Assembly (NCBI GenBank): GCA_018970445.1
Contig: JAGWWF010000013.1
Location: 1-64,000, forward strand
Reading direction: 5' to 3'
DNA from: Alphaproteobacteria bacterium
Lineage (GTDB): Bacteria; Pseudomonadota; Alphaproteobacteria; Sphingomonadales; Sphingomonadaceae
Length of the DNA: 64,000 nt
The position numbers and the translations under genes were made by a program. Under the pieces are notes generated by a model. The model worked only from the letters and a program-made list of their open reading frames with translations. It had not been told where the DNA came from and searched no databases. Positions 133-20,197 of the stretch are shown one piece after another; the first letter of the stretch is position 1, and each line of letters starts with the position of its first letter.

Positions 133-1635
133 CTAAGCCCTTCGTTTCCGTTGCCAGGCCGCCCAGGTGGTGGCCCAGTTGGCCGGATCGTTCAGATCGC
201 GATCCGACAATCTGGCCACGGCCTGGTTGTGCGGGGCGGCGCGCACATGATCGGGATCGCGATAGGCTTCGTCGATGACATGGGCCAGCACGTCGATCCA
301 CTCATCAATCTCCTCGCGTGACCACATCTCGCCGGCTTCGGGCGTGAAGGGCTGCGGCACGATCCAGGGTTCGTGGGACAGCCAGAAGGCATCGATGCCG
401 AAATCGGCAATGCGGTTCTGCACGTCCACCGCGCTCACGCCGGTCTCTTCATACAATTGGCCCAGGCTGTAGCGGGTCATTTCCAGCCGGGGCAGCGGCT
501 GATCGGGATGGGAACGGCTGACACCGCGCAGGGTGAGCAGGCGCTTTTCCATATAGTTGTTCATCAACACCGACAGGCCGCCCGCTTCACGCAGGCCATC
601 GGCCCCCATCGCCCGCGCCCAGGCATAGGCCTTGAACACCTGATGCAGATTGCCCAGATATTCCCGTACCTTGGCCGTGGCCAGCGGCGGCTGTTCCAGC
701 CGGTAGCCGGCATCGCCGGCTGCCACCAGCGGGCCGGGCAGGAAGGGGGCGAGTTCGGCCGTGCAGCCATAGGCCCCCACCGCCGGGCCGCCGCCGCCCT
801 TGGAGACGCCGAACGTCTTGTGCAGCATGAACATGCAGGCATCAAAGCCCAGATCGCGGGCGCGGATGCGGGTCATCACGCCGTTGAAATTGGCATGATC
901 GTAAAAGGCCAGGGCGCCGGCGGCCTTGGTCAACCGCACCCATTCGGCGATTTCGGGGTTGTACACGCCCATGTCGTCCGGGTTGTTGATCATCAGGGCC
1001 GCGGTATCGGGGCCCAGCGCGGCCTTGAGCGCATCAAGGCTGGGATAGCCATTTTCGCCCAGCGGCAGGGTGATCACCTCAAATCCGGCGGTGGCGGCGG
1101 TGGCCGGGTTGCACGGGTGGCTTTGCAGGCTGGTGATGATGCGGGTGCGGGTGGTGGATTCCCCGCGCGCAGCGTGGAAGGCGCGGGTGATGATGGCCTG
1201 GGTCCAGGCGGCATCGGCACCGCCGGCGGGCTGGAAGGTGAAACGGTCCATGCCCGACAGGCTGCGCAGGATCAGATCCAGCCCATGCACGGCGGCCAGC
1301 AGCCCCTGCATGGTTTCGGGCGGTTGCGCCGGGTGGATCCCGGCCAGGCGCCGTGCCGCCTGTTCGCCGGCGCGCGGGTTGTATTTCATCGTGCAGGTGC
1401 CGAACAGGCTGATGCCGATCATGCCCATCGTCTGCTGCGACAGGCGCAGATAATGGTTCAGCACTTCGGGTTCGCTCAGCTCCGGCAGGGCCGGCGGCGT
1501 TTGCCGTGCCAGGCCGGGCGGCACCAGGCCATCGCCGGCGACCTGCGGATAATGCTGGCCGCGCCGGCCGGGGGCACCGATCTGGTGGATCAGCGGTTCA
1601 TCCCAGCGGGCGGCATGGAAACGCCGCAGGCTCAT
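133..1635 (-). CDS. gcvPB: glycine dehydrogenase subunit 2-like PLP enzyme (GcvPB family)
   Basis: 500 residues of the fold-type I PLP family that forms the catalytic half of two-subunit glycine decarboxylase (P-protein). Family motifs are clear: a TCTMKYNP stretch near residue 80 and the cofactor lysine K273 in LHKTFG, followed by a glycine-rich loop (KGGGGP). It starts inside the stop of the upstream gcvPA-like gene (ATGA overlap), so the two subunits are co-translated. In a standard glycine cleavage system this enzyme loads the H-protein, but no gcvH, gcvT or lpd lies anywhere in the window. The C-terminal third also departs from well-known GcvPB proteins. I infer a PLP amino-acid decarboxylase or lyase, possibly with a substrate other than glycine. 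Family assignment is firm; substrate is open. Confidence 0.85.
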   Translation of the reverse strand: MSLRRFHAARWDEPLIHQIGAPGRRGQHYPQVAGDGLVPPGLARQTPPALPELSEPEVLNHYLRLSQQTMGMIGISLFGTCTMKYNPRAGEQAARRLAGIHPAQPPETMQGLLAAVHGLDLILRSLSGMDRFTFQPAGGADAAWTQAIITRAFHAARGESTTRTRIITSLQSHPCNPATAATAGFEVITLPLGENGYPSLDALKAALGPDTAALMINNPDDMGVYNPEIAEWVRLTKAAGALAFYDHANFNGVMTRIRARDLGFDACMFMLHKTFGVSKGGGGPAVGAYGCTAELAPFLPGPLVAAGDAGYRLEQPPLATAKVREYLGNLHQVFKAYAWARAMGADGLREAGGLSVLMNNYMEKRLLTLRGVSRSHPDQPLPRLEMTRYSLGQLYEETGVSAVDVQNRIADFGIDAFWLSHEPWIVPQPFTPEAGEMWSREEIDEWIDVLAHVIDEAYRDPDHVRAAPHNQAVARLSDRDLNDPANWATTWAAWQRKRRA

Positions 1636-2984
1636 GCCAATATCTCCGTCAGCGCCGTGGCCAGAAGTTCGATGTCGGCCGGGCTGTGCACGTCGGTCAC
1701 GGCGAACAGCGCACGGGTTTCATCCAGCGCGATGCCGCCCAGGATGCCGCGCGCCAGCAGGGCGGCGTTGACGGCCGCCACGCTGTGGCCGCTGGCGCTG
1801 AAATCGATCAGGATTTCGCGGAAGATGCCGGTGGTTTCAGCCACTTGGATGCCGGGCACGGCCGCCAGCCGCCGCGCGGCGGCGGTGGTGGTGTGCAGGA
1901 TCAGCCGGCCCAGTTCGGCAAAGCCGGCCGGCCCCAGCAGCGCCATGTGGGTGGCCGCCGCCACGGCCCACAGATAGGTGGAATTGCCCGTCCAGTCCTT
2001 GCCCAGCTCGCGGCTGCCATAGCTGGACTGGTGGAACAGCATCAGGCCGAACGCCAGCTGGCCATCAACGGTGGTGGTGAGGCTGTTCAGCAAGGTGGGA
2101 TATTCGGCGGCAAAACGCGCCTCGTCGCGGCTGGCGATGAAACCGCCCAGCCCGCCGCCGGCGTTCATGTGCACCCCCAGGGTCTGGATGGTGCCCACCG
2201 CGATATCGACGCCCAGATCGCCGGGCGGGGCGATCACGCCCAGGGTGATCGGATCGACCCCGGCGATGGTGAGCGCGCCGCAGCCGGCCGCAATGGCGGC
2301 GATGGCCGCCGCCCCGGTTTCCAGCCCGCCACGATAGGCCGGATTTTCATAATAGACCGCGGCCAGCCGGGCATCCGCCATGGCGGCAAGAGCAGAAACA
2401 TCAATGCGGCCAATGGCATCGCAGGGCAGCGGCACCAGTTCCAGCCGCAGTTCCGGATCGATGCTTTCGGCATAGCCGCGCAGCACCGCCAGCCGTTCCG
2501 GGCAGATTGCCGCCGGAATGGCGATGCGGGTGCGCCCCGTGATCCGGGCCGCCATGCGCACCCCGTGGCCGGCCGCCGCGCCCCAGCTGTACACCGGCAG
2601 GCCCACCAGTTCGAGGCCGAGCAGCGCGCCCAGCTGGCTGGTGAATTCCCACCACACCTGGTTGCGGCCGAAATCGCTGCTGGGCGTGCCCCAGACCGGC
2701 GTGAGAAATTCGGCGCGGCCAATGATTTCATCCACCACGGCCGGCACATGATGCTGCCAGATGCCGCCGCCCAGGAACGACAGCATGTCGCCAGCCGGCC
2801 GGTTCTGTGCAGCCAAGTCGTTCAGATGGCGGCGCAATTCCACTTCGCTGGACAGGGCGGGCGGCAGATCGGGCAGGCCATCCAGCCGGTGTGCCGCCGG
2901 GATCTGGGCAAACAGCGGCTCCACGCTGGCCAGCCCCAGTTCGGCCAGCACGGCGGCCGTGGTGGCCGGGGCCGAATTGGGCAT
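1632..2984 (-). CDS. gcvPA: glycine dehydrogenase subunit 1-like protein (GcvPA family)
   Basis: 450 residues, the usual length for the GcvPA half of split glycine decarboxylases. The FLGGGIWQHHVPAVVDEII stretch near residue 70 matches the family (FLGGGxxxHxxPxxVxxI), followed by a TPVWGTPSSDFGRNQ region. GcvPA has no PLP lysine and forms a heterodimer with GcvPB, consistent with the ATGA-coupled neighbour. I chose the ATG giving MPNSAPATTA because longer in-frame extensions run into the divergent AcoX-like gene. The 114-bp gap to that gene must carry both divergent promoters. Together with gcvPB this is one transcription unit reading left, out of the island. Confidence 0.83.
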   Translation of the reverse strand: MPNSAPATTAAVLAELGLASVEPLFAQIPAAHRLDGLPDLPPALSSEVELRRHLNDLAAQNRPAGDMLSFLGGGIWQHHVPAVVDEIIGRAEFLTPVWGTPSSDFGRNQVWWEFTSQLGALLGLELVGLPVYSWGAAAGHGVRMAARITGRTRIAIPAAICPERLAVLRGYAESIDPELRLELVPLPCDAIGRIDVSALAAMADARLAAVYYENPAYRGGLETGAAAIAAIAAGCGALTIAGVDPITLGVIAPPGDLGVDIAVGTIQTLGVHMNAGGGLGGFIASRDEARFAAEYPTLLNSLTTTVDGQLAFGLMLFHQSSYGSRELGKDWTGNSTYLWAVAAATHMALLGPAGFAELGRLILHTTTAAARRLAAVPGIQVAETTGIFREILIDFSASGHSVAAVNAALLARGILGGIALDETRALFAVTDVHSPADIELLATALTEILA

Positions 2985-3098
2985 GAACGGGTGCGCGCGG
3001 GGCCTTGTCACCTGATCCTCCTGCCGGGTCACAAAGGCCTTGCCAGTTTGTGCTGACAGCGCACAACAGGGCAGGATTGCGAACGGCGAGAGCATAAA

Positions 3099-4157
3099 GT
3101 GAAGCTGGGCTTTGTTGTCAACCCGCTGGCCGGCAGTGGCGGGCCGCTGGCGGCCGGTGGCAGCGATGGCCTGCCGCTGGCGCTGGCCGGCGGCTGGGCG
3201 GCGGCGCGGGCCGGGCGGGCGCTGGCTGGGCTGGCGGGCGCCGATGTGATGCTGTTCACGGCGGCCGGCGCGATGGGCGCGGCGGTGGCAAAGGCCGCAA
3301 ACGTGCCCGCCACCGTGGTGCATGTGCCCGCCCGCGCCACCAGCGCGGCCGATACCGTGGCGCTGGTGGCGGCAGCGGTGGCGGCGGGGGCCGAAATCAT
3401 CCTGTTTGCCGGCGGCGATGGCACGGCGCGCGACGTGCTGGCAGCCAGACCGCCGATTCCGGTGCTGGGCATCCCGGCCGGCGTGAAGATGCACAGCGGC
3501 GTGTTCGCGCCTTCCCCGGCCGCGGCCGCTGCCAGCCTAGCCCGGCTGCTGGCCGGTGCCCCCCGCCGGCTGGCGCAGGCCGAGGTGGTGGACCGCGATG
3601 GCGAGGGCCGGCTGTGCCTGTATGGCCAGTTGCCGGTGCTGGCCGATCTGCCGCGCCAGGCGGCCAAGGCCGGCGGGGTGTCGGCCGACGCCCTGCTGCC
3701 CGGCGCCATTGCCGAGGCCGCAACCCGGCTGCGCGCCGAACCCGTGTGCATGATCGGCCCCGGCCTGACCATGCTGGCGCTGAAACAGGCGCTGGCCGGG
3801 GCCGGCAGCCTGCTGGGGGTGGATGTGTTTGCCCATGGCCGGCTGGTGGCGGCCGATGCCGATGCCGCCACAGTGCTGGCGCTGGCCGGGGATGCCGCGC
3901 CGCTGTTGGTGCTGGGCGTGATTGGCGGGCAGGGGTTTCTGCTGGGCCGCGGCAACCGGCAACTGGCGCCGGCCTTGCTGGCGCGGGCGCAGTGGCCGCC
4001 GCTGGTGATCGCATCGGCGGCCAAGCTGGCTGCGCTGCCGGGCGGTGCGCTGTGGATCGACAGCGGCGATGAAGCGCTTGACGCGGCGCTGGCCGGGCAT
4101 ATCGAGGTGCGCACCGGCCGCCGCCGCGCGATGATGATGAGGCTTCATGCTGCCTGA
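3099..4157 (+). CDS. AcoX-like protein of the ATP-NAD kinase/diacylglycerol kinase superfamily
   Basis: 352 residues starting at GTG. An N-terminal GFVVNPLAGSGG strand-loop (residues 4-15) and the nucleotide-binding GGDGT motif (105-109), followed by GIPAGVKMHSG, place it in the NAD kinase-like fold. Its closest named relatives are the AcoX/COG3199 proteins, which occur in catabolic operons such as acetoin degradation and have unclear biochemistry. It is the first gene of a seven-gene rightward unit and overlaps the next gene by 11 bp, so it is translationally coupled to the adenylate-forming enzyme. Whether it phosphorylates NAD, a lipid or a pathway intermediate cannot be told. Confidence 0.75.
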   Translation: MKLGFVVNPLAGSGGPLAAGGSDGLPLALAGGWAAARAGRALAGLAGADVMLFTAAGAMGAAVAKAANVPATVVHVPARATSAADTVALVAAAVAAGAEIILFAGGDGTARDVLAARPPIPVLGIPAGVKMHSGVFAPSPAAAAASLARLLAGAPRRLAQAEVVDRDGEGRLCLYGQLPVLADLPRQAAKAGGVSADALLPGAIAEAATRLRAEPVCMIGPGLTMLALKQALAGAGSLLGVDVFAHGRLVAADADAATVLALAGDAAPLLVLGVIGGQGFLLGRGNRQLAPALLARAQWPPLVIASAAKLAALPGGALWIDSGDEALDAALAGHIEVRTGRRRAMMMRLHAA

Positions 4158-5592
4158 CCAGTTCACCCCCTTCGCCGATCTGCTGCGCTTGCACGCCGGC
4201 CAGGGCGACAAGCCGGCGATCATCGATGGCGAAACGGTGATCGGCTGGGCGGCGCTGGATGCGCTGGTGGATCGGGCCGCGGCGCGGTTGCAGCAGCAGG
4301 GCTGGGGCCGGGGCGATGTGATCGCCATTGCTGCCGGCATGTCGGCCGCGTATCTGCTGCTGTGGCTGGGGGCCCTGCGCGCCGGGCTGGCGGTGGCGCC
4401 GCTGCCGCCATCGGCCACCGCAGACACCATCGCGATGATGGCGGCCGATGCCGATGCGGTGCGGCTGTATGGCGATGCCGATCTGGCTGATGCCGAACTG
4501 TTCGCCGCGCCCGGCAGCGTGCCGATGCCGGTGGCCATCGGCCCGGATGATCCGTTCAACCTCATCTACAGCAGCGGCACCACCGGCGCCCCCAAGGGCA
4601 TCGTGCAGCCGCACCGGCAGCGCTGGGCACATGTGCAGCGCGGTGCCACCCAGGGCTATGGCCCGGATGCCGTGACGCTGATCGCCACCCCGCTGTACAG
4701 CAACACCACGCTGGTCAGCCTGTTTCCCACCCTGGGGCTGGGCGGCACGCTGGTGCTGATGCGCAAGTTCGATGCCGCCGGCTTTCTGGCGCTGGGCGAA
4801 CGCCACCGCGCCAGCCATGCCATGCTGGTGCCGGTGCAATATCGCCGCATCATGGATCTGCCCGATTTCGATTCCCATGATCTGTCGTCGTGGCGGCGCA
4901 AATTCTGCACCTCTGCCCCGTTTCCGGCGGCGTTGAAGGCGCAGGTGCTGGCGCGCTGGCCGGGCGGGCTGACCGAATATTATGGCATGACCGAAGGCGG
5001 CGGCACCTGCATCCTGCAATGCCATGAACGGCCCGACAAGCTGGCGACCGTGGGTCAGCCCGCCGCCGGCAGCGATATCCGCATCATCGATGGCGATGGC
5101 CGCGAACTGCCGCCCGGCCACACCGGCGAAGTGGTGGGCCGATCGCCTGCGATGATGAGCCAATATCACAAGCGCGACGATGCCACCCGCGCCGTGCTGT
5201 GGTTCTGCGAACAAGGCCAGCGCTTCATCCGCACCGGCGATATCGGCCGGTTCGATGAAGAAGGCTTCCTCACCCTGCTCGATCGCGCCAAGGATGTGGT
5301 GATTTCCGGCGGGTTCAACATCTATCCCATTGATCTGGAACAGGTGCTGGCCGGCCATCCCGATGTGGCCGATTGCGCCGTGGTGGGGGTGGCATCGGAT
5401 CGCTGGGGCGAAACGCCGGTGGCCTTTGTGGTGGGCCGCCGCCCGCTGGATGTGGCCGCCATCCGCGATTGGGCCAACGCCCGGCTGGGCCGGATGCAGC
5501 GGCTGGCCGACGTGGTGCAGATCGACGTGCTGCCGCGCAGCGAGATCGGCAAGGTGCTGAAACGCGATCTGCGCGTGCGTTATTCTGGCTGA
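4147..5592 (+). CDS. adenylate-forming enzyme (acyl-CoA synthetase/AMP ligase family)
   Basis: 481 residues of the ANL superfamily, which activates a carboxylate as acyl-AMP and usually transfers it to CoA. Visible motifs are the P-loop-like SSGTTG (142-147), YYGMTEGGG (A5-type) in the middle, RTGDIG followed by DRAKDVVISGGFNIYP near the hinge, and the catalytic lysine K469 in GKVLKRDLR. The protein is complete but slightly short for the family. It starts within the end of the AcoX-like gene and lies 54 bp before an SDR gene. In this context it probably activates a carboxylate intermediate of the island pathway. The acyl group is unknown. Confidence 0.85.
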   Translation: MLPDQFTPFADLLRLHAGQGDKPAIIDGETVIGWAALDALVDRAAARLQQQGWGRGDVIAIAAGMSAAYLLLWLGALRAGLAVAPLPPSATADTIAMMAADADAVRLYGDADLADAELFAAPGSVPMPVAIGPDDPFNLIYSSGTTGAPKGIVQPHRQRWAHVQRGATQGYGPDAVTLIATPLYSNTTLVSLFPTLGLGGTLVLMRKFDAAGFLALGERHRASHAMLVPVQYRRIMDLPDFDSHDLSSWRRKFCTSAPFPAALKAQVLARWPGGLTEYYGMTEGGGTCILQCHERPDKLATVGQPAAGSDIRIIDGDGRELPPGHTGEVVGRSPAMMSQYHKRDDATRAVLWFCEQGQRFIRTGDIGRFDEEGFLTLLDRAKDVVISGGFNIYPIDLEQVLAGHPDVADCAVVGVASDRWGETPVAFVVGRRPLDVAAIRDWANARLGRMQRLADVVQIDVLPRSEIGKVLKRDLRVRYSG

Positions 5593-5646
5593 TGCGCGCC
5601 GGTTTTCGGCTTTGCGCGGCCGGCCTGATATGCCAAGCCTTGGGCC

Positions 5647-6423
5647 ATGGCGATGGCGATTGATCTGACCGGCAAGACCGTGCTGCTCACCGGGGCGTCC
5701 AAGGGGATTGGCGCGGCCACGGCGGCCATATTGGGCGCGGCCGGCGCGCATCTGGTGGCGCATTATGGCGGCGATCGCGCCGGGGCCGAAGCCGCCACCG
5801 CCGCCATTCCCGAAGATCGCAAGCAGCTGCTGGCCGCCGATCTGGGTGACATGGCGCAGGTGGCGGCGCTGTGGCAGGCGGCGGTGGCCTGGCGCGGGCG
5901 GGTGGATGTGCTGGTGAACAATGCCGCCGTGATGGATTTCACCGGCGGTTTCGATGCCGATGATGAACATTGGGATGCGGTGTGGGACCGGGCGCTGGCG
6001 GTGAATGTGAAGGCCCCGGCGCGGCTGATGCGCGATGCGGTCAATCATTTTCGCGGGTGCGGCGGCGGCACCATCATTTCGATCAGCAGCTGGGCGGCGC
6101 AGCGCGGCGTCACCAATCCGGCCACCATCGCCTATGGCGCATCCAAGGCGGCGGTGCGGGCCGCCACCCAGAGCGTGGCGCGCGGCTTTGCCCGCGATGG
6201 CGTGCTGGCCTATGTCGTGGCGCCCGGCGTGGTGCGCACCCGGCTTTCCGAACAATTTGCCGCCAGCCAGGGCGGAGAGGACAAGGTTTCGGCCGGGCTG
6301 GCCAGCGGCGAGTGGGTGAGCCCCGATGAACTGGGCCGGCTGGTGGCGTTTCTGGCATCCGGCGCGGTGCCGCAGATGTCGGGGGCGACGATCGACGTGA
6401 ACGGCGCCAGCTATATCCGCTGA
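5647..6423 (+). CDS. short-chain dehydrogenase/reductase
   Basis: 258 residues with the classical SDR pattern: the TGASKGIG dinucleotide-binding motif at about 15-22, an NNAA motif near residue 94, the active-site serine in SISSW and the YGASK catalytic pair near 158. It would oxidise or reduce a hydroxy/keto group with NAD(P). The ATG at 5653 is an equally possible start. The stop shares a base with the start of the next gene (TGATG), tying it to the HcnAB-type oxidoreductase. The substrate is not evident. Confidence 0.85.
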   Translation: MAMAIDLTGKTVLLTGASKGIGAATAAILGAAGAHLVAHYGGDRAGAEAATAAIPEDRKQLLAADLGDMAQVAALWQAAVAWRGRVDVLVNNAAVMDFTGGFDADDEHWDAVWDRALAVNVKAPARLMRDAVNHFRGCGGGTIISISSWAAQRGVTNPATIAYGASKAAVRAATQSVARGFARDGVLAYVVAPGVVRTRLSEQFAASQGGEDKVSAGLASGEWVSPDELGRLVAFLASGAVPQMSGATIDVNGASYIR

Positions 6424-8132
6424 TGCGTGTGGCCCTGCCTGGCGTGGCGCGCAGTGGCGATGGCTTCGGCTTTCGCTTTGACGGGCGCGATTGTGTCGGG
6501 TTTCCCGGCGAAAGCCTGGCCGCGGCGCTGGTGGCGGGCGGGCACATGGCGCTGTCCACCACGGCGCGCGGCGATGGCCGCGGCGTGTTCTGCGGCATGG
6601 GCGTGTGCGGCGAATGCACGGTGCGGGTGGATGGCCAGACGCGGCGGGCCTGCATGATGGCGGCCGCGCCCGGCCTGGTGGTGGAAGCGATGCCGGCGCG
6701 CGCCGAACCTGCACCGCCGGCTGCCCTGCCGGCGGCGCAGGCGCTGGCCTGCGATGTGCTGGTGATCGGCGGCGGCCCGGCCGGGCTGGCGGCGGTGCAG
6801 GCGCTGGCCGCCACCGGTCTGGATGTGGTGGTGATCGACGAACGCAGCCGACCGGGCGGGCAATATTTCAAGCAGCCGGGGGCGGGCTTTGCCGTTGATC
6901 CGGCCCGGCTGGATGCGCAATTCGGCGAAGGCCGCGCCCTGATCGCCGCGGTGGCGGCCAGTGGCGCGCGGGTGCTGGCCGGCACGCTGGCCTGGGCCGC
7001 CGAAGCGGCGGGCGACCAGGTGGCCGTGCACGCGCAGGGGCCGGATGGGCCGCTGCGCATCACGGCGCGGCGGCTGATCATCGCCATGGGCGCCGCCGAA
7101 CGGCCCTGGCCGATGCCGGGCTGGACCCTGCCCGGCGTGATGACCACCGGCGCTGCCCAAACCCTGCTGCGATCGGGCGCGGTGGCACCGGGCCGCCGGG
7201 TGCTGGTGGCGGGCAATGGCCCCCTGAACATCCAGCTGGCCTGCGAATTGCTGGCGGCCGGCATCGATGTGGCGGGGCTGGTGGAACAGGCACCCTGGCC
7301 GTTCACGCGGCCGGCGGCGGCGCTGGCGATGGCGCGGCACGATGCGGCGCTGGCGCTGGCCGGGATCGGGCAACTGGCGCGGCTGGCGCGGGCAGGGGTG
7401 CCGCTGCTGTTTGGCCATGCCCTGATCGCGGCGCAGGGCGATGGCCGGGTGCAGCGGGCGGTGGCGGCGCGGCTGACGGCGGGCGGCCTGGCCGGCGAAC
7501 GCGCCTTTGCCGTGGATGCGCTGTGCATCGGGGCGGGTTTCCAGCCGCAGGCGGAACTGGCGCGGGCGCTGGGCTGTGCGCTGGGCTGGCACGATGGCGC
7601 AGCGGTGGTGGTGCGTGATGATGATGGCCGCACATCGCAGCGGCACGTGTTCGTGGCCGGCGATGGCGGTGGGCTGGGCGGCGCGCGCGCGGCGCTGGCG
7701 CAGGGCGCGCTGGCCGGGCTGGCAGCGGCGGCCGATCTGGGCGCTGCCGCCGATGCGGCGCGCGTGCGCCAGTTGCAGCGGCAGCTGGCGACGGCGCGCG
7801 GCTTTCAGGCCGGGCTGTGGCGGCTGTTTGCCCCGGCCCATGCCGCGCCTTCGGTGGCGACGGCGCAAACCATGATCTGCCGCTGCGAAGGCGTGACCTT
7901 TGGCGCGGTTGATGCGCTGATCGCCGACGGGCCGGCCGATGCCGGCCGCATCAAGCGGGCGACGCGGCTGGGCATGGGCCGTTGCCAGGGCCGTTATTGC
8001 GCGCCGCTGCTGGCAAACCGGCTGGCGGCGGCGGCCGGGCGGCCGGCGGCGGCCGATGATCTGTACGCGCCGCGCCCGCCGTTCAAGCCGATTAGCATTG
8101 CTGCGCTGGCGGCGGCGGCCGATCCGCCATGA
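6423..8132 (+). CDS. fused HcnA-HcnB-type 2Fe-2S/FAD/BFD oxidoreductase
   Basis: 569 residues carrying three modules. Residues about 1-85 are a plant-type [2Fe-2S] domain with cysteines C57, C62, C65 and C77. About 110-430 is an FAD/NAD-binding disulfide-reductase-like domain with GGGPAG at 116-121 and DERSRPGGQ. The C-terminus is a BFD-type iron-sulfur domain with C486, C488, C521 and C526. Separate versions of these modules are the HcnA and HcnB subunits of hydrogen cyanide synthase and the equivalent subunits of D-hydroxyproline dehydrogenase and opine oxidases. The third subunit type (HcnC/DAO) is encoded about 2.8 kb downstream on the other strand. I infer that the two form an electron-transferring amino- or imino-acid dehydrogenase. 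It overlaps the binding-protein-permease gene by 4 bp. Confidence 0.85.
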   Translation: MRVALPGVARSGDGFGFRFDGRDCVGFPGESLAAALVAGGHMALSTTARGDGRGVFCGMGVCGECTVRVDGQTRRACMMAAAPGLVVEAMPARAEPAPPAALPAAQALACDVLVIGGGPAGLAAVQALAATGLDVVVIDERSRPGGQYFKQPGAGFAVDPARLDAQFGEGRALIAAVAASGARVLAGTLAWAAEAAGDQVAVHAQGPDGPLRITARRLIIAMGAAERPWPMPGWTLPGVMTTGAAQTLLRSGAVAPGRRVLVAGNGPLNIQLACELLAAGIDVAGLVEQAPWPFTRPAAALAMARHDAALALAGIGQLARLARAGVPLLFGHALIAAQGDGRVQRAVAARLTAGGLAGERAFAVDALCIGAGFQPQAELARALGCALGWHDGAAVVVRDDDGRTSQRHVFVAGDGGGLGGARAALAQGALAGLAAAADLGAAADAARVRQLQRQLATARGFQAGLWRLFAPAHAAPSVATAQTMICRCEGVTFGAVDALIADGPADAGRIKRATRLGMGRCQGRYCAPLLANRLAAAAGRPAAADDLYAPRPPFKPISIAALAAAADPP

Positions 8133-9601
8133 GGCCGTTGCTGTTGCTGCTGTGGTTGCTGCTGGCCGGGCCGGTGCTGGCGCGCGATCTGGCCAGCATC
8201 CGCGCCGCCGGCGTGCTGCGCGTGGGCGTGAACCCGAATTTTCCGCCGATGAGCAGCTATGGCCCCGGTGGCCGCCTGCAGGGCTTTGATGTGGCGGTGG
8301 CGGGTGAGCTGGCGCGGCGGCTGGGGCTGGGCCTGGAACTGGTGCCCACCGAAGCGGCCAGCCGCGTGCCGTTTCTGGTGTCGGGCCGGATCGATCTGTC
8401 GCTGGGGGCGTTGACGATCACGCCGGAACGCCGGGCGCTGATCGATTTTTCGGTGCCGCTGCATTCCGAAGCGATGGGCGTGATCACCACCGATCGCCTG
8501 CCGGTGGCGCGCTGGCAGCAGCTGAACCGGGCCGATATCACCCTGGTCAACATGCGCGGCAACCAGTCGGTGGCGGTGCTGGCCGAAAAACTGCCGCGGC
8601 CGCAGCGGCTGCTGGTGGATGGCAATGCCGATACCATCCGCGCCATCGCGCAGGGGCGGGCCGATGCGCTGGTGGAAAATGTGGATTTCTTCATCGGTTT
8701 CACCCGCAATTATCCCGATGTGCGCTGGCGCGTGCTGCCCGATCCGATCTTCACCGCCTGGTGCGGCATCGGCCTGCCAAAGGGCCAGGAACCGTTACGC
8801 GCGGCGGTGGATGCGGCGCTGATCGCCATGCACCGCGATGGCACGGTGAACCGGCTGTGGCAGGCGGCCTATGGCGCGGCGATGACGGTGAAGGTGCAGC
8901 CCGATCAATATCGCCGCGTGGGCGCCAGCGGGCCGGCCGGATACCGGCTGGATTGGCGGCCGGTGCTGGCGCAATTGCCCTATCTGGCCGGGGGGGCTGC
9001 GATCAGCCTGCTGATTGCGGTGGTGGCCTTTGCGGCCGGCAGCGTGCTGGGGCTGGCGGCGGCGCTGGCGCGGCTGGGCGGGCCGGGCTGGGCGGCGCGC
9101 ACGGCCGGCGCCTATGTGGCGATCATCACCAACACGCCGGCGCTGGTGCAGATCTTCCTGCTTTATTATGCGCTGCCGCAGGCCGGCATCCGGCTGCCCG
9201 GGCTGGTGGCGGTGATGCTGGGATTGAGCCTGAATGCCGGCGGCTATCTGGCCGACATATTGCGCGCCGGCATCCAGTCGGTGCGCGCCAGCGAGCTGGA
9301 GGCGGCCGCCGTGCTTGGCCTGAGCCGCGCCGACACGCTGCGCCATGTGATGCTGCCGCACATCATCCGCACCGTGTATCGGCCGCTGGCGAATTTCTTC
9401 ATCGTGCTGGTGCTGGGCAGCTCGATGGCGGCGCTGTTCGGGGTGGAGGAATTGACCGGGCGGGCGATCAACATCTCCACCGCCAATCTGCGCACCATCG
9501 AGACGTTCGCGGTGACGGGGCTGCTCTATATCGGCCTCACGCTGCTGGCATCGGGCCTGCTGGCGCTGGCCGGCCGCCGGCTGCTGCGGGTGCGGGCATG
9601 A
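8129..9601 (+). CDS. amino-acid ABC transporter: periplasmic binding protein fused to permease
   Basis: 490 residues with an N-terminal signal segment (MRPLLLLLWLLLAGPVLA). A family 3 solute-binding domain follows (about 20-260; IRAAGVLRVGVNPNFPP near its start and a GFDVAVAGELA stretch). The C-terminal half is a HisM/GlnP-type permease with several hydrophobic spans and the ATPase-contact loop EAAAVLGLSRADT. This polar-amino-acid importer class normally has a separate binding protein; here it is one polypeptide, tethering the receptor to the channel. The ATG overlaps the preceding stop (ATGA). A second permease and an ATPase follow. It most likely imports the island's substrate. Confidence 0.88.
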   Translation: MRPLLLLLWLLLAGPVLARDLASIRAAGVLRVGVNPNFPPMSSYGPGGRLQGFDVAVAGELARRLGLGLELVPTEAASRVPFLVSGRIDLSLGALTITPERRALIDFSVPLHSEAMGVITTDRLPVARWQQLNRADITLVNMRGNQSVAVLAEKLPRPQRLLVDGNADTIRAIAQGRADALVENVDFFIGFTRNYPDVRWRVLPDPIFTAWCGIGLPKGQEPLRAAVDAALIAMHRDGTVNRLWQAAYGAAMTVKVQPDQYRRVGASGPAGYRLDWRPVLAQLPYLAGGAAISLLIAVVAFAAGSVLGLAAALARLGGPGWAARTAGAYVAIITNTPALVQIFLLYYALPQAGIRLPGLVAVMLGLSLNAGGYLADILRAGIQSVRASELEAAAVLGLSRADTLRHVMLPHIIRTVYRPLANFFIVLVLGSSMAALFGVEELTGRAINISTANLRTIETFAVTGLLYIGLTLLASGLLALAGRRLLRVRA

Positions 9602-10263
9602 GCGCGTTTTTCTCCACCGATACCGCCGCCTTTCTGGCCGGGGCGCTGGGCCGCACGCTGTGGATGACGATCATCGGCTGCACGCTGGGGTTGCTGCTGG
9701 GGGCCGGGCTGGCGCTGCTGCGCCGCACGCAGCTGCGGGCGCTGGCGCCGCTGCGGCTGCTGGCGCTGCTGCATGTCGAAGGCTTTCGCCGGGTGCCGTT
9801 TCTGGTGATCCTGATGTTCGTGCTGTTTTTCGTGCAGGCGGTGGCGCCCGATCTGTCGCTGCTGGGCATTGCCACGCTGGCCGTGACGTTGACGGCCAGC
9901 GCCTATCTGGCCGAAATCGTCGGGGCCGGGCTGGATGCGGTGCCGCGCCCGCAGGTGGAAAGCGCGCAGGTGCTGGGGCTTTCCTGGTGGGATCGGCTGG
10001 TGCGCGTGGTGCTGCCCCAGGCCTGGGGGGTGATCCTGCCGCCGGCCGCCGCCTTCATGGTGATGTTCGTGAAGGATACCGCGCTGGCCAGCCAGCTGGG
10101 CGTGGTCGAACTGGCCTTTTCGGCCAAGATATTGGTGAACAAGGGTGTATCGCCGCTGCTGGGCTATGGCGCGGTGCTGCTGCTGTATGCCGGGATCAGC
10201 TGGCCGCTGGGCCGGGCCGCCCGATTGTTGGAGAAACGCCTTGGCGCACATCGACATCGTTGA
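9598..10263 (+). CDS. amino-acid ABC transporter permease
   Basis: 221 residues of the HisM/GlnP permease family, with about five hydrophobic spans and the EAA loop ESAQVLGLSWWDRLVRVVLPQA that docks on the ATPase. It overlaps the fused permease gene by 4 bp and the ATPase gene by 23 bp, so the importer is a tightly coupled set with two different permeases. It probably pairs with the permease half of the fusion as a heterodimer. No substrate specificity is readable. Confidence 0.88.
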   Translation: MSAFFSTDTAAFLAGALGRTLWMTIIGCTLGLLLGAGLALLRRTQLRALAPLRLLALLHVEGFRRVPFLVILMFVLFFVQAVAPDLSLLGIATLAVTLTASAYLAEIVGAGLDAVPRPQVESAQVLGLSWWDRLVRVVLPQAWGVILPPAAAFMVMFVKDTALASQLGVVELAFSAKILVNKGVSPLLGYGAVLLLYAGISWPLGRAARLLEKRLGAHRHR

Positions 10264-10978
10264 TCTGGTGGCCGGCTATGGCGGCAGCACCATCCTGAAC
10301 GGCGTGTCGTTCAGCGCCGGGCGCGGCGAGGTGGTGGCGCTGATCGGGCCATCGGGATCGGGCAAATCCACCGTGCTGCGCGTGGCGATCGGGCTGACAC
10401 CGGCCAGCGGCGGCACGATCAGCATCGATGGCACGCCGGTGGATTATGCCCGCCCGGCTGCCGTGGCGGCGTTGCGCCGGCGCATGGGCATCGTGTTCCA
10501 GCAATATAATCTGTTCCAGAACATGACCGTGATCGACAATCTGGTGCTGGCCCCGGTGCGCACCCTGGGCGTGCCGCCGGCGCAGGCGGCAGCGCGGGCG
10601 CATGATCTGCTGGCGCGCGTGGGCCTGGCCGACAAGGCGGGCAGTTACCCCGACCAATTGTCGGGCGGGCAGCAGCAGCGGGTGGCGATTGCCCGCGCGC
10701 TGGCGATGCAGCCCGACATATTGCTGCTGGATGAAGTGACCGCCGCGCTGGATCCGGAACGGGTGGGCGAGGTGCTGGAAACCATCCGGGCGCTGGCCGA
10801 TACCGGCATCACCATGCTGATCGTCAGCCACGAAATGGGCTTTGTGCGCGAAATCGCCAGCCAGGTGGTGATGATGGATGCCGGCCGGGTGGTGGAAACC
10901 GGCCCACCGGCCGCGATGTTCGATGCGCCCACCCAGCCGCGCACCGCTGCCTTCATGAAGGCGATCCTGCGGCATTAG
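10241..10978 (+). CDS. amino-acid ABC transporter ATP-binding protein
   Basis: 245 residues of the GlnQ/HisP class. Walker A is GPSGSGKST, the Q-loop lies in GIVFQQYNLFQNMTV, the signature is LSGGQQQR, Walker B is ILLLDEVTAALD, and the switch histidine is in LIVSHEMGF. A TTG start is chosen because GGAG sits 8 bases upstream and homologues begin near this point. The start lies inside the end of the permease gene. The 3' end overlaps the convergent amine-oxidase gene by 26 bp, closing the rightward unit that began with the AcoX-like gene. Confidence 0.88.
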   Translation: MAHIDIVDLVAGYGGSTILNGVSFSAGRGEVVALIGPSGSGKSTVLRVAIGLTPASGGTISIDGTPVDYARPAAVAALRRRMGIVFQQYNLFQNMTVIDNLVLAPVRTLGVPPAQAAARAHDLLARVGLADKAGSYPDQLSGGQQQRVAIARALAMQPDILLLDEVTAALDPERVGEVLETIRALADTGITMLIVSHEMGFVREIASQVVMMDAGRVVETGPPAAMFDAPTQPRTAAFMKAILRH

Positions 10979-12101
10979 GGGCAAAGGCCGCCATTGGCAG
11001 ATCGAACGCCGGCGGCCGGCCCAGCAGCATGTCGGCCACCAGCCGGGCGGCGGCCGGGCTGCCGGTGAAGCCCACCCACGGCACGAAACACACCAGCGCA
11101 TCCGGGTGGCCAGGCAGGGGGCCGATGATGGGCAGCCAGTCATCGGTGCCGTTCACATGGGCGGCCCAGCTGCGCACGATGTTCAGCCCGGCGATGGCCG
11201 GCACCATGGCCATCGCCACGCGCAGATTGGCGGCCAGATTGGCGGCATCCACCTGCGGCCGGCCGCCTTCATCCAGCCGCGCATCCCAGCCGCCGCCGAT
11301 CAGCAGGCTGCCGTTGCGGGCCTGTTTCAGGGTGAGTTTCTGCCCGGCGCAGTAAAGCAGATGCGGCACCAGCGGCGCTGCCGGCTCGGTAACGCTCACC
11401 TGGATCGGCACCGCATCGATGGCCAGCGGCGTGCCCAGCTGCGCCGCCAGCGCGCCGGTGGCCGCCCCGGCGGCGATGACGATGCGCCGCGCCTGCCAGT
11501 GGCGATCCCCGGCCACAACCCGATAGCCCGTGCCGGTGGCGGTGATGCGCGCTTCGCCCACGCCGCTGGCCACCGCCACCCCGGCGGCGCGGGCGGCGCG
11601 CAGCAGGGCCGGCACCACCAGCAGCGGGTTGGCCTTGCCCTCGATCGGGGCAAATGCCCCGCCGATGGCCGTTTCGGCCAGATAGGGGGCGCGGGCGCGG
11701 ATCGTGTCGCGGCCGAGCAATTCCACCGCCAGTCCGGCGTCACGCTCGATCTGCGCCTTGGCGGCGATTTCGGCCATTTCGGCGTCGCTGGTGGCCACCA
11801 GCAGGCCGCCGCCAAAGCCGATTTCCAGATCGGCGGCCAGATCGGCCTCCAGCGTGCGCCACAAGCCAATGGATTCGATCAGCAGGCTGACCGCCGGGCG
11901 CCAGGCCCGCGCCCAATCGGCCCCCTTGTGGCGGAAGGGATCATGGGGGATCTGGGCGTGCAGGCTGCCGGCATTGGCCGATGAGGCCTGGCCGCCGGGC
12001 ACGCCGGCCTCCACCAGGGTGACGGCCATGCCGGCCCGCGCCAGATCGAGCGCGGTGGCGCAGCCGGCCAGCCCGCCGCCCAGCACGATCACATCGGTCA
12101 T
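10953..12101 (-). CDS. FAD-dependent amine/amino-acid oxidoreductase (DAO family, HcnC/DadA-like)
   Basis: 382 residues of the D-amino-acid-oxidase fold. The FAD motif VIVLGGGLAGCATA is at the N-terminus, with a SSANAGSLHAQ loop near residue 40 and the C-terminal family block with VGFTGSPAAARLVAD. Such proteins are the catalytic third subunit beside HcnA/HcnB-type partners in HCN synthase, D-hydroxyproline dehydrogenase and opine oxidases. The fused HcnAB gene is on the opposite strand and converges with this one, so they sit together without sharing an operon. It would take electrons from the C-N bond of an amino or imino acid. A free-standing oxidase of the DadA type remains possible. Confidence 0.8.
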   Translation of the reverse strand: MTDVIVLGGGLAGCATALDLARAGMAVTLVEAGVPGGQASSANAGSLHAQIPHDPFRHKGADWARAWRPAVSLLIESIGLWRTLEADLAADLEIGFGGGLLVATSDAEMAEIAAKAQIERDAGLAVELLGRDTIRARAPYLAETAIGGAFAPIEGKANPLLVVPALLRAARAAGVAVASGVGEARITATGTGYRVVAGDRHWQARRIVIAAGAATGALAAQLGTPLAIDAVPIQVSVTEPAAPLVPHLLYCAGQKLTLKQARNGSLLIGGGWDARLDEGGRPQVDAANLAANLRVAMAMVPAIAGLNIVRSWAAHVNGTDDWLPIIGPLPGHPDALVCFVPWVGFTGSPAAARLVADMLLGRPPAFDLPMAAFAPNAAGSPS

Positions 12102-12239
12102 CGGCCGCTCCGCGCCGGCATTGCGCCGCACTTGCCGCCGGCGATGTGGGCGCTATGGTAACTTCTGTTCGCGGATCGCATGGATCGGCCATCACCAAAC
12201 ATGGGTTCTTCCCAGCCTTCATCAGCCAAGGGCGCAGCA

Positions 12240-13202
12240 ATGACAACGACTTTCCGGGGCAGCCACAGCGTCATCGTCACCCCGTTCAATGATGATGGCA
12301 GCGATATCGATATCGGCCGCCTCAACGCCTTTCTGGACTGGCAGCTGGAATCGGGCGTGCCGGGCGTGATCGTGCTGGGCACCACCGGCGAATTCCTGAC
12401 GATCAGCGATGATGAACGCCGCCGGCTGGTGGATGCCACCGTGCGCCACGCCGCCGGCCGCTATCAGGTGATGGTGGGCAGCATGAATGCCTATACCCCC
12501 AATGCCGTGCGTTACAGCCGGGAAGCGCAGGATCTGGGCGCCGATGGCCTGATGATCATCCCGCCTTATTATTACACCCCCACCGATGACGAGATTTTCG
12601 AATATTATCGCGCCATCTGCGCTGCGGTGACGATCCCGATCATGCTGTACAACAACCCGGTCACATCCAACCGCGACATGTCGGCCGCATTGGTGGCGCG
12701 GTTGACGGCGGCGTTCGAACCGGTGCGATACATCAAGGAAGCCAGCATGGACGTGGCCCGCGTGTTCGACATTGTCGAGGCGACGGGCGGCGTGATGAAC
12801 GTGTTTGCCGGCGAACGGCCGGTGGAAAGTTTCCTGCTCGGCGCTGTTGGCTATGTGAACCCCTATGGCAATTATCTGCCCTATGCCACGCGGCGGCTGT
12901 GGGATCTGCTGGTGGATGGGCGCGTCCACGATGCGACGCGCATCCAGGGGCTGGTGCACAAGTTCGACCGGATCATTGCGCAAGGCCACCCCACTTATGG
13001 CCACCAATGCTATTCCAAGGCGCTGGCCCATGCCCGTGGCTATCCGGTGGGCGATGTGCGCGCGCCGCTGACGAAATTTGCCAGCCTGGGCGCAGAAGGC
13101 CGCGACAAGCTGGCCCAGATCATGGCGGTGTTCGACGAGATCGACGCCGCCATGGCCGATATCGACAGCCGATCGGCCGACGCCCGCGCCCACGCCGCCT
13201 GA
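12240..13202 (+). CDS. DapA/NAL-family lyase (dihydrodipicolinate synthase-like)
   Basis: 320 residues of the class I aldolase TIM-barrel family. The Schiff-base lysine K166 (YIKEAS), the GTTGE motif (47-51) and the active-site tyrosine Y137 (LYNNP) are all present. True DapA makes a lysine precursor, but catabolic members cleave or deaminate 2-keto acids, e.g. the deaminase of hydroxyproline catabolism. Its position behind an amine dehydrogenase suits the latter. A GAVGYVNPYGNYLP stretch near 202 differs from the usual family sequence there. The start is chosen for an AAGG upstream; the gene is divergent from the amine oxidase across a 138-bp gap and 2 bp before the OYE gene. Confidence 0.8.
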   Translation: MTTTFRGSHSVIVTPFNDDGSDIDIGRLNAFLDWQLESGVPGVIVLGTTGEFLTISDDERRRLVDATVRHAAGRYQVMVGSMNAYTPNAVRYSREAQDLGADGLMIIPPYYYTPTDDEIFEYYRAICAAVTIPIMLYNNPVTSNRDMSAALVARLTAAFEPVRYIKEASMDVARVFDIVEATGGVMNVFAGERPVESFLLGAVGYVNPYGNYLPYATRRLWDLLVDGRVHDATRIQGLVHKFDRIIAQGHPTYGHQCYSKALAHARGYPVGDVRAPLTKFASLGAEGRDKLAQIMAVFDEIDAAMADIDSRSADARAHAA

Positions 13203-13204
13203 TC

Positions 13205-14302
13205 ATGGCCGACATTGCGCTGTTCACGCCGCTGACCATCCGCGGCGTCACCTTCCGCAACCGCGTGATGCTGGCCCCGATGTGCCAGTATCGGGCGGTT
13301 GCTGGCCATGCCCAGCGCTGGCACCGCAGCCACCATGGCCGCATGGCGCTGGGCGGGCTGGGCGGCGCGCTGCTGGAGGCGACCGCCGTGGCGCCCGAAG
13401 GCCGCATCACGCCGGGCTGCCTGGGCATCTGGGATGATGCGCAGCTGCCCGGCCTGTCCGAACTGGTGGCCATCTATCATGATGAAGGCGTGCCGGTGGG
13501 CATCCAGCTGGCCCATGCCGGGCGCAAGGCGGCGGCCGCCACGCCGTTTGCCGGCGCGCAGCCGCTGGCCCCCGATGATCCCGACTGGTGGCAAGGCCTG
13601 GCCCCCAGCGCCATCGCGTTCGGCCCCGGCTGGCAGACGCCGCGCGCGCTGGATCGTGATGGCATCATGGCGGTGATCGGCCAGTTTGCCGCTGCCGCCC
13701 GCCGCGCCATGGCCGCCGGTTTCGATTTCGTCGAGATCCACGGCGCGCATGGCTATCTGATCAACAGCTTCACCTCCCCGATCAGCAACGCGCGCAGCGA
13801 CGCCTGGGGCGGCGGCAACCGGTTCCGGCTGGCGGTTGAAATCACCCGCGCCGTGCGCGCCGCAGTGGGGGAGGATATGCCCCTGTTCTTCCGCACATCC
13901 TGCGTGGATGGGGTGGATGGCGGCATCACCATGGCCGACACGGTGGCACTGGCCAGCGCCCTGAAGGAGGCCGGCGCCGATGTGATCGATTGTTCCACCG
14001 GCGGCGTGCTGGGGCCATCGGGCGTGGCGCATGTCGCCCCCGCGCCCGGCTATCTGGCGCCCTTTGCCCAGCAGGTGCGGCGCGAGGCCGGCATTGCCAG
14101 CATGGCGGTGGGGCTGATCATGGATGGGGCCCTGGCCAACCGCATCATTGCCGATGGCCAGGCCGATCTGGTGGCGGTGGGCCGGCAATTGCTGGCCGAT
14201 CCCGCCTTCGTGCACCGCGCCGCCCACGAACTTGGCCACCCCAACCCGCACCGCCTGCTGCCGCAGGGCCTGGGCTTCTGGCTGGAACGGCGGCGGGTGT
14301 AG
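13205..14302 (+). CDS. NADH:flavin oxidoreductase, Old Yellow Enzyme family (YqjM-like)
   Basis: 365 residues of the FMN-dependent TIM-barrel OYE family. It has the LAPMCQY motif with C27 and Y29 that marks the thermophilic-like/YqjM subgroup, HAGRKA near 101, the HGAHGYLINSFTSP histidine pair near 180, and SDAWGGG. Such enzymes reduce activated C=C bonds; relatives in N-methylproline and stachydrine catabolism act as demethylases. It follows the DapA-like gene by 2 bp and is likely co-translated. It probably acts on an unsaturated or N-alkyl intermediate of the island pathway, but the reaction is not determinable. Confidence 0.85.
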   Translation: MADIALFTPLTIRGVTFRNRVMLAPMCQYRAVAGHAQRWHRSHHGRMALGGLGGALLEATAVAPEGRITPGCLGIWDDAQLPGLSELVAIYHDEGVPVGIQLAHAGRKAAAATPFAGAQPLAPDDPDWWQGLAPSAIAFGPGWQTPRALDRDGIMAVIGQFAAAARRAMAAGFDFVEIHGAHGYLINSFTSPISNARSDAWGGGNRFRLAVEITRAVRAAVGEDMPLFFRTSCVDGVDGGITMADTVALASALKEAGADVIDCSTGGVLGPSGVAHVAPAPGYLAPFAQQVRREAGIASMAVGLIMDGALANRIIADGQADLVAVGRQLLADPAFVHRAAHELGHPNPHRLLPQGLGFWLERRRV

Positions 14303-15953: not shown

Positions 15954-16041
15954 TTCAGCTTCCCCGCGCCTGCATGCTGGCGAACATGTGTTTACCATGC
16001 GAACAATGCCAGCCGCCGCCACCGCCGCCAAGGAAAATCCG

Positions 16042-16968
16042 ATGAACACGCCACCGATGCAGCCGCCCTGGCAGATGAGCGAAGCGGAGGTGCGCGATGT
16101 GGTGGGCCTGGTGCGTGCCGGACAATCGCTGGCACCGGCCGCCTGGCCGGGCGGCGCCCAGGTGGCCGTGGCCTTGAGTTTCGATTGCGATCATGAATGT
16201 TTCGAACTGGGCGGTGGCGGCCGCGCCGTGGGCCGGCTGGCCTGGGGCGAATATGGCCGGCGGGTGGGGGTGCCGCGCATCCTGGAGGTGCTGCGCCGCC
16301 ATGACGTGCCGGCCAGTTTCTTCATGCCCGCCGTGTGCGCCCGGCTTGATCCGGACGAGACGCGCCGCATCGTGGCGGCCGGGCACGAGGTGGGGCTGCA
16401 CGGCTGGATTCACGAGAACAACAGCCTGCTGGATGAAGCCACCGAACGCGATCTGATGCTGCGGGCGATGGATGTGCTGACCCCGTTGATCGGGCGGCCG
16501 CCGGTGGGGTTCCGTTCGGCCAACTGGGATCTGTCGCGCCACACCATCGCGCTGGTGGCCGAACTGGGCCTGGCCTATGACAGTTCGCTGATGGCCGACG
16601 AGACGCCCTATGAGCTGATCATCGATGGCCAGAACAGCGGCGTGGTGGAAATTCCGGTGGAATGGCTGCGCGACGATGCGGTGTATTTCCTGTTCAACCG
16701 CAACCCGGCCACCCGGCCATGGGCGACGCCAGATGATGTGTTCGGCATCTTTGCCCGCGAACTGGATGCCGCCATTGCCGAAGGCGGCCTGTTCCAGCTG
16801 GTGATGCACCCGTTCGTGATCGGTTATCGCAGCCGCATCTGGATCCTGCAGGCGCTGATCGAACGCGCCATCGAACGCACCGGCGGCAAGGTGTGGTTTG
16901 CCACCCACGAACAGGTGGCCGATCATGTGCGCACAGCGGCGCTGCGTGCGCCAGCCGCGCATGATTGA
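16042..16968 (+). CDS. polysaccharide deacetylase/cyclic amidase family (NodB fold, HpPgdA/PuuE-like)
   Basis: 308 residues with the NodB homology core. The metal and catalytic aspartates are in SFDCDHE (D48, D50) and the second motif is H120-x3-H124 in LHGWIHEN. RSANWDLS and a late LVMHP histidine follow. The spacing and the lack of a signal peptide resemble the cytoplasmic HpPgdA/allantoinase-like branch, which hydrolyses small amides or rings rather than cell-wall glycan. The start is chosen for AAGGA 7 bases upstream. Set between two DUF885 genes beside a nitrogen-compound catabolic island, a ring-amide hydrolase is more likely than a chitin-type deacetylase, but this is inference. Confidence 0.75.
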   Translation: MNTPPMQPPWQMSEAEVRDVVGLVRAGQSLAPAAWPGGAQVAVALSFDCDHECFELGGGGRAVGRLAWGEYGRRVGVPRILEVLRRHDVPASFFMPAVCARLDPDETRRIVAAGHEVGLHGWIHENNSLLDEATERDLMLRAMDVLTPLIGRPPVGFRSANWDLSRHTIALVAELGLAYDSSLMADETPYELIIDGQNSGVVEIPVEWLRDDAVYFLFNRNPATRPWATPDDVFGIFARELDAAIAEGGLFQLVMHPFVIGYRSRIWILQALIERAIERTGGKVWFATHEQVADHVRTAALRAPAAHD

Positions 16969-17033
16969 TTGACAGGCCGCAGCCAAGGCAGTGTTATCGC
17001 CCGGTGGCATCGGTTCAAGGCAGGGAGAGCGGG

Positions 17034-20143: not shown

Positions 20144-20197
20144 AGCTGGCGGCCTGTGGTGGCCGCCAGCAACCGGCACAAACGGCGGGCGCAGCGC

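Follow-up and report, generated by a model that had tools for sequence, protein, structure and literature searches.

We analysed a stretch of 64,000 nucleotides of alphaproteobacterial DNA (positions 1 to 64,000 of contig JAGWWF010000013.1, assembly GCA_018970445.1), here called the window, the first base of which is base 1 of the contig that we denote C17. At its left end lies a group of metabolic genes, referred to below as the island, which includes a pair of genes resembling the two subunits of glycine dehydrogenase (PA and PB) and a kinase-fold gene (KIN). The initial annotation had placed twelve genes of named families at 133-14302. All twelve were confirmed at these positions:

133..1635, minus strand: PB, GcvPB-like subunit dependent on pyridoxal phosphate (PLP), of a clade distinct from glycine dehydrogenase (NF003346, 459.6 bits, cutoff 441)
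1632..about 3032, minus strand: PA, GcvPA-like subunit, start uncertain (3032 or 2984) (NF001696, 359.2 bits, cutoff 364)
3099..4157, plus strand: KIN, NAD-kinase-fold, AcoX-like kinase, partner of PA/PB (PF01513, PF20143)
4147..5592, plus strand: LIG, AMP-forming enzyme of the acyl-CoA ligase family, accessory in close relatives
5647..6423, plus strand: SDR oxidoreductase (domain matches)
6423..8132, plus strand: fused HcnAB-like subunit with 2Fe-2S, FAD and BFD domains (domain matches)
8129..9601, plus strand: fused family-3 solute-binding protein and permease
9598..10263, plus strand: second amino-acid-type permease
about 10241..10978, plus strand: polar amino-acid-type ABC ATPase, start approximate
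10953..12131, minus strand: HcnC-like FAD subunit of the DAO family
12180..13202, plus strand: DapA/DHDPS-family lyase; GTTGE is present, and the Lys expected to form the Schiff base lies in an IKEA stretch
13205..14302, plus strand: Old Yellow Enzyme (OYE), NamA-like

The family-typical motifs are intact in the island proteins, including the ligase and the OYE, and we take these motifs to have their usual functional meaning. The genes are not a single operon. They form four putative transcription units, PA-PB (minus), KIN to the ABC ATPase (plus), HcnC (minus) and DHDPS-OYE (plus), in which several adjoining genes overlap by a few bases and others are separated by short gaps.

The island probably continues on a second contig

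In the near relatives L026, L029 and L031, PB is followed by genes for an aminotransferase and an IclR-family protein. When the L026 aminotransferase and IclR were used as queries, both were matched on contig C7 of the window's own genome, with 86% and 81% identity, respectively, and an SSADH gene was found between them:

C7:41939-42793, minus strand: IclR
about C7:42751-44211, minus strand: SSADH, 75% identical to that of a relative
C7:44332-45720, plus strand: class III aminotransferase

C7 is 45,874 bases long, and the aminotransferase gene stops about 150 bases short of its end. Window bases 1 to 17 are the final 17 bases of C7 (L161 17859-17875), and the gene order and strands across C7/C17 agree with those of the relatives. 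Because of this overlap and synteny, we infer that C7 and C17 are neighbouring contigs. The overlap sits between the convergent aminotransferase and PB genes, in a repeat-like stretch. This stretch probably broke the assembly. The island would then be cut by the contig end and extend to the left onto C7. The twelve genes first described stand, and the coordinates 133-14302 are too narrow for the island, since IclR, SSADH and the aminotransferase are on C7.

The gene set recurs in other genomes

Related loci (88 in total) were collected from plasmid records and one genome scan. Eighty were found through PB, the best 80 of 236 confirmed relatives, and eight plasmid loci, two of them from one plasmid, through PA/KIN; PB presence across the loci is by selection. 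Family counts use single-linkage clusters with fixed thresholds, and locus counts ignore relatedness, except in the palindrome test with one locus per 80% PB cluster. Of nine genome stretches, five (L184, L187, L188, L189 and L190) are the same DNA as L062, L026, L028, L042 and L027, respectively, and provide no independent evidence. Neighbourhoods of 20 canonical gcvPB genes served as controls (one of 11.9 kb, the others of 20 kb).

KIN adjoins PA/PB in 84 of the 88 loci, and the hosts are mostly Proteobacteria and Actinobacteria. Three of the four loci lacking KIN are contigs that start at or in PA/PB, and in the fourth, a haloarchaeal plasmid, KIN lies at another place on the plasmid. Among the 57 loci of at least 20 kb, KIN was present in 56, the aminotransferase in 31, SSADH in 26, HcnC in 25, IclR in 24, HcnAB in 23, a 3HAD-like enzyme in 22, SDR in 21, ABC in 15, and DHDPS and OYE in 11 each, whereas every one of these families was absent from the controls (0/20). 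The 3HAD-like enzyme has no close relative in the window's own genome (best 35%). The genes in the right-hand flank of the island and the ligase were rare in the same 57 loci (ligase 1, PuuE-like 1, second DUF885 5, first DUF885 0). Over all 88 loci, orthologues were counted for LIG (3), SDR (32), HcnAB (33), HcnC (34), OYE (15), the binding protein-permease (9), the second permease (12), the ABC ATPase (19), the DapA-family protein (23, at 50% identity or more), the first DUF885 (1), the second DUF885 (6) and the PuuE-like protein (4, at 55% or more).

Near-complete sets were found in unrelated alphaproteobacterial families (L182, L183) and also on two Rhodobacterales plasmids; the plasmids of Antarctobacter and Roseicitreum have almost all of the genes, together with an Xaa-Pro peptidase and oligopeptide and carbohydrate-type importers. 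Accessory gene content differs from locus to locus, as would be expected if unrelated metabolic genes had come together by chance. Such a chance neighbourhood is hardly credible, since the frequent co-occurrence against 0/20 control neighbourhoods, together with the common palindrome described below, argues that the island is, by its gene content, a recurrent set. The co-occurrence in other genomes that had been proposed as a check was therefore borne out.

In a second arrangement, KIN-PA-PB is accompanied by a CoA ligase, alcohol dehydrogenases or an amine oxidase, with no HcnABC in view, and these loci group in the PB tree. L084, L101, L105, L019 and L022 are of this second type, with an acyl-CoA-ligase-family gene nearby and HcnABC not in view. 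In Gemmobacter, a primary-amine oxidase and an acyl-CoA synthetase adjoin the KIN/PA/PB trio.

The initial annotation had deduced a ring or unsaturated acid from the CoA-type activation and the OYE. This deduction turned out to be weak, because neither the ligase (3/88) nor the OYE (15/88) defines the core; from its distribution, the AMP ligase is confined to close relatives and is not a core gene. It is accordingly very doubtful that the island serves to degrade a nitrogen ring or unsaturated acid by way of CoA activation and reduction by the OYE. Both enzymes are intact in the window and an acyl-CoA synthetase directly follows PB in two Pseudomonas loci, but no ring oxygenase was present among the window genes scanned.

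A common palindrome in the island promoters

The heptamer GCGAACA recurs just upstream of KIN, the aminotransferase and SDR in relatives, and paired copies form the palindrome GCGAACA-NN-TGTTCGC. It emerged from repeats of GCGAACA in the window, on contig C7 and at eleven loci of relatives, and from two perfect pairs in L028/L188 and L038, and was scanned over all 88 loci before the enrichment tests. The main test covered 71 loci, leaving aside those inspected at discovery and their kin, with 209 permuted half-sites as the null; island-gene promoter stretches made up 6.6% of the sequence. With up to two mismatches, 16 promoter sites were found against a permuted mean of 0.4 (maximum 6), and with up to three, 49 against 4.9 (maximum 29). 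When one locus per 80% PB cluster was kept (35 loci), the corresponding values were 12 against 0.17 (maximum 3) and 30 against 2.56 (maximum 15). A first test with 78 loci had given 22 sites with up to two mismatches against a mean of 0.5; it still held L036, L053 and L098, which had been inspected at discovery, and the 71-locus test drops these and four Pseudomonas kin. Plain rates were equivocal: the count with up to two mismatches was 52 in 1.68 Mb of island loci and 3 in 0.39 Mb of control loci, and that with up to one mismatch was 10 and 2, respectively.

With up to three mismatches over the 88 loci, there are 8 sites before the 9 carbohydrate-type binding protein genes, 12 before the 37 aminotransferase, 11 before the 36 IclR, 9 before the 29 SSADH, 9 before the 32 SDR, 12 before the 65 PA and 7 before the 36 HcnC genes, and others too; none precedes the 24 HcnAB genes. 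A site was present in 29 of the 36 loci with the IclR family and in 18 of the 52 without it, an association that ignores relatedness and in which the IclR gene itself adds one promoter to the scan. A search by shuffles for a common motif in four promoters of the window's own genome alone gave nothing, as 23 of 40 shuffles were as good. Two candidate operators were located in the window:

12157..12172: candidate operator in the HcnC/DHDPS divergent promoter (3 mismatches, weak alone)
15980..15995: candidate operator between the DUF885 and PuuE-like genes (2 mismatches)

Since the palindrome is enriched in island promoters, including those of loci not inspected at discovery, the island looks like one regulon with the palindrome as its predicted common operator, which lends only indirect support to co-induction of the genes.

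PA and PB are distinct from canonical glycine dehydrogenase

Bit scores in the PB search fell into two groups, full-length members of the clade at 446 or more and canonical GcvPB at 266 or less; one clade PB is split into fragments of 338 and 228 bits. The clade was found in 7 of 289 alphaproteobacterial genomes searched and in 6 of 24 genomes of the genus. All six of the latter (6/6) also carry a canonical copy, which in the window's genome lies elsewhere. In the tree, all 88 clade PB group together on a long branch (support 0.946) with none of 28 canonical PB inside.

The comparison set consisted of 24 canonical PA and 28 canonical PB from alphaproteobacteria, picked by the PHGGG and YQPExxQG motifs. 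In the alignments, 38 PA and 48 PB positions are near-fixed in both the clade and the canonical group yet different between them; the contrast at the PHGGG/YQPExxQG positions is circular, since the canonical set was selected by them, and that at the other switched positions is not. The PHGGG(G) loop after the PLP lysine is present in none of the 88 clade PB, and the YxPYQPExSQG motif (YQPExxQG) of the A subunit in none of 86 clade PA, whereas each is present in the two solved chains displayed for its subunit. The PLP-lysine segment HKTF is kept (HKTFGxxK in 87 of 88 clade PB). The newly fixed PB residues include E385, R388, R408, D415 and W424, which could hold an acidic or phosphorylated substrate. 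The predicted structure of PB is poor (pLDDT 71.7).

PA/PB thus shares with the two-subunit GcvPA/GcvPB P-protein its fold family, the PA-PB gene order, the PLP-lysine segment and, for PB, a score above the NCBI cutoff, PA being just under its own. It differs in forming a separate clade without YQPExxQG and PHGGG, in its partner kinase, and in that the window genes scanned include neither a gcvH nor a gcvT domain; a canonical copy is also present in the genome. Judged by these sequence features, PA/PB is a distinct clade and not an ordinary glycine dehydrogenase. Housekeeping glycine cleavage was rejected as its main role because of the canonical copy and the many switched near-fixed positions. 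The same two points, the motif losses, the lack of gcvH/gcvT in the window and the unexplained KIN also make it quite unlikely that PA/PB is an extra glycine dehydrogenase, which would act on glycine arising in the pathway together with the standard GcvH and GcvT of the cell. The PB score and the retained HKTF segment agree with such a role, and the closest solved relatives of HcnC and HcnAB include glycine and sarcosine oxidases.

KIN, the partner of PA/PB

KIN contains the PF01513 and PF20143 domains and a GGDGT motif (GGDGTARD), and is presumed to be linked to AcoX. Its predicted structure is confident (pLDDT 88), and no match to this model was found in the PDB at E 0.001 or better. The weak structural matches were diacylglycerol kinase, NAD kinase and phosphofructokinase, among other folds. 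Both domains and the GGDGT motif are shared with the AcoX/ATP-NAD kinases of acetoin clusters, whereas KIN has PA/PB as its partner, no acetoin dehydrogenase gene among the window genes scanned and no close solved structure. A role in acetoin metabolism was rejected, since the window genes scanned include no acetoin genes. In one study, an ATP-NAD kinase is described in an acetoin operon, and the glycine dehydrogenase subunits of that study are HcnABC (PMC6722718).

Within the family, the window's own genome was the single match to KIN among 199, and within the class 13 of 385 genomes matched, 9 of them at E 1e-20 or better with the own genome included. Seven strongly KIN-positive alphaproteobacterial genomes were covered by the PB search, and clade PB was found in six, including the window's own; in the five others no more than 3 kb separates PB from KIN. 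In the seventh, G284, KIN is present and no PB match falls in the clade score range. In Peptoclostridium, the gene of a KIN relative overlaps that of a HisC/CobD-like PLP enzyme (L108 7689-9765), which hints that relatives of KIN may supply PLP enzymes with phosphorylated substrates. KIN relatives near shikimate-pathway or EpmC genes had no PA/PB among the open reading frames (ORFs) scanned, and the Aeromonas and Pseudoalteromonas contexts, with five ORFs scanned at each, were uninformative.

The HcnABC-type enzyme, the importer and adjoining hydrolases

The amino-acid-type importer and the HcnABC/opine-dehydrogenase-type enzyme were both identified as initially annotated. The latter comprises a DAO-family catalytic subunit, HcnC, and a 2Fe-2S/FAD/BFD subunit. 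These subunits, the importer and the DapA-family neighbour are as in HcnABC, opine and D-hydroxyproline dehydrogenase systems; in the island, by sequence, A and B are fused and are joined by PA/PB, KIN, the aminotransferase and SSADH. At other loci the importer is a carbohydrate-type ABC system or an APC permease.

Class III amine aminotransferases and SSADH occur in routes of the γ-aminobutyric acid (GABA)/polyamine type. The aminotransferase of a relative scores above the NF004767 cutoff and the SSADH of a relative above the TIGR01780 cutoff, and the island genes differ from such routes in their linkage to PA/PB, KIN and the common palindrome.

An R-x-W FMN motif is reported for opine and D-hydroxyproline dehydrogenases (PMC4575208), and the HcnC translation contains RSW as a candidate for it, at a putatively equivalent site. 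The motif is in line with a hydroxyproline- or opine-type pathway, in which the HcnABC dehydrogenase, a DapA-family deaminase/aldolase, the semialdehyde dehydrogenase and the importer would be the main genes and the others side branches. M24 and DPP IV-type peptidases near some islands are compatible with it, as is an Agrobacterium vitis plasmid that carries genes for HcnAB-HcnC, the DapA family and the importer with neither KIN nor PA/PB. We nevertheless consider this pathway rather unlikely. PA/PB, KIN, the aminotransferase, SDR and OYE would be left unexplained, and no proline racemase or hydroxyproline epimerase was present among the annotated genes, for which no dedicated search was made. 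The DapA-family protein was also unmatched in 34 kb of Sinorhizobium meliloti pSymB, an unannotated record in which the hyp genes are unconfirmed.

The Agrobacterium vitis plasmid, pAt (L114 6328-13997), carries the importer, a DapA-family gene, a dihydropyrimidinase, and HcnAB and HcnC fused into a single protein, and neither KIN nor PA/PB was matched in this stretch; it is possible that this set is a stand-alone half of the pathway. In Mesorhizobium islands (L045 13087-14511; L050), a gene of the ornithine/arginine decarboxylase family lies between the SDR and DapA-family genes.

Peptidases and amide hydrolases (DUF885, M24, DPP IV, PuuE-like, amidohydrolase) adjoin some islands, which suggests that the substrate may arrive as a peptide or amide. 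Three such genes follow the island in the window and may belong to it:

14319..15953, minus strand: first DUF885 protein, possible accessory
16042..16968, plus strand: PuuE-like hydrolase of the polysaccharide deacetylase family, possible accessory
16965..18704, plus strand: second DUF885 protein, possible accessory

A PuuE-like gene is also found near the Roseicitreum island. In the 15 listed of 463 plasmid records, PuuE-like deacetylase-family genes are 54-61% identical, and such genes also occur without the island (L111 9690-10577; L112 8001-8900), for example beside creatininase, ketopantoate-reductase-like and isoaspartyl-peptidase genes. In relatives, the second DUF885 adjoins a gene of 900-1000 amino acids (f37), a putative TonB receptor as judged from size and place, with no domain scan. 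Directly right of the second DUF885 lies a repressor-like gene of the S24 peptidase family (window 18706-19383, minus strand), and further on are an RND efflux adaptor and pump pair (20156-24318) and an O-succinylhomoserine-sulfhydrylase-like gene at 24367.

Proposed pathway

We propose, with a probability of about one half, that the island is a single catabolic regulon under IclR control, serving to break down an imported amino or imino acid that may stem from peptides or amides, with a route from PA/PB through the aminotransferase to SSADH. From the gene families, the ABC importer (elsewhere the carbohydrate-type ABC or APC permease) would bring the compound in and HcnAB/HcnC would oxidise a C-N bond. 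The resulting 2-oxo acid would be handled by the DapA-family lyase, and its redox state adjusted by SDR, OYE or the 3HAD-like enzyme. PA/PB, without a lipoyl H-protein, is probably a PLP decarboxylase that would convert an α-amino acid to a primary amine, feeding the class III aminotransferase (in Gemmobacter, the primary-amine oxidase). The semialdehyde thus formed would be converted by the SSADH-family enzyme to an acid, which, in loci that have a CoA ligase or CoA transferase, would then be activated by it. KIN would phosphorylate an intermediate or support PA/PB, which is the least certain step. The decarboxylation route fits the exchange of aminotransferase for primary-amine oxidase at one locus and of CoA ligase for CoA transferase. 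HcnABC, DHDPS, OYE and SDR may enter this route at some point.

Several observations weigh against this proposal. The aminotransferase is missing in 26 and SSADH in 31 of the 57 loci of at least 20 kb, and for 22 of the 88 sequences in the PB tree, some of them on short contigs, the visible neighbourhood contains no member of the aminotransferase, HcnABC or DapA-family clusters. The decarboxylase chain is read from neighbour families, with the amine-oxidase exchange at a single locus, and no substrate emerged from the analysis. As for regulation, the window's candidate operators at 15980 and 12157 are imperfect (2 and 3 mismatches) and would not stand alone, sites with up to three mismatches are common, the 64 kb window alone containing 13, and the plain rate with up to one mismatch is similar in island loci (10 in 1.68 Mb) and controls (2 in 0.39 Mb). 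Finally, PB exceeds the NCBI GcvPB cutoff, KIN has no close solved relative, and some KIN relatives (including L186) have no PA/PB seen nearby.

Mycosporines, opines, phytosiderophores and hydroxylysine were weighed as substrates, none of them being supported by a test. A more specific form of the proposal is unlikely as a whole: KIN would phosphorylate the hydroxyl group of an amino acid, and PA/PB would be a new type of heteromeric decarboxylase that needs no lipoyl group and acts on the phosphorylated hydroxy-amino acid. Alternatively, PA/PB would act on an acidic amino acid bound by the newly fixed arginines R388 and R408. The two would provide a widespread and undescribed entry route from an abundant natural amino or imino acid through a primary amine to a semialdehyde, under one conserved IclR operator, from Proteobacteria to Actinobacteria.

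Implications

Each family of the island is known, while their combination, the PA/PB clade with KIN and the common palindrome appear to be undescribed in the open-access literature searched. No description of the full gene set was recognised there (subscription papers were outside the scope), in agreement with the initial annotation. When a regulon is conserved and an importer recurs in it, the nutrient is usually a common one, and the question of the substrate can be tested directly by way of the palindrome and the binding protein of the importer. The central enzyme is named glycine dehydrogenase despite many changed positions that are otherwise fixed; if the specific form of the proposal is true, the whole clade that now bears this name is misnamed. 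Once the substrate is named, a new catabolic route would follow, this misannotation could be corrected and an AcoX-type kinase would gain a role.

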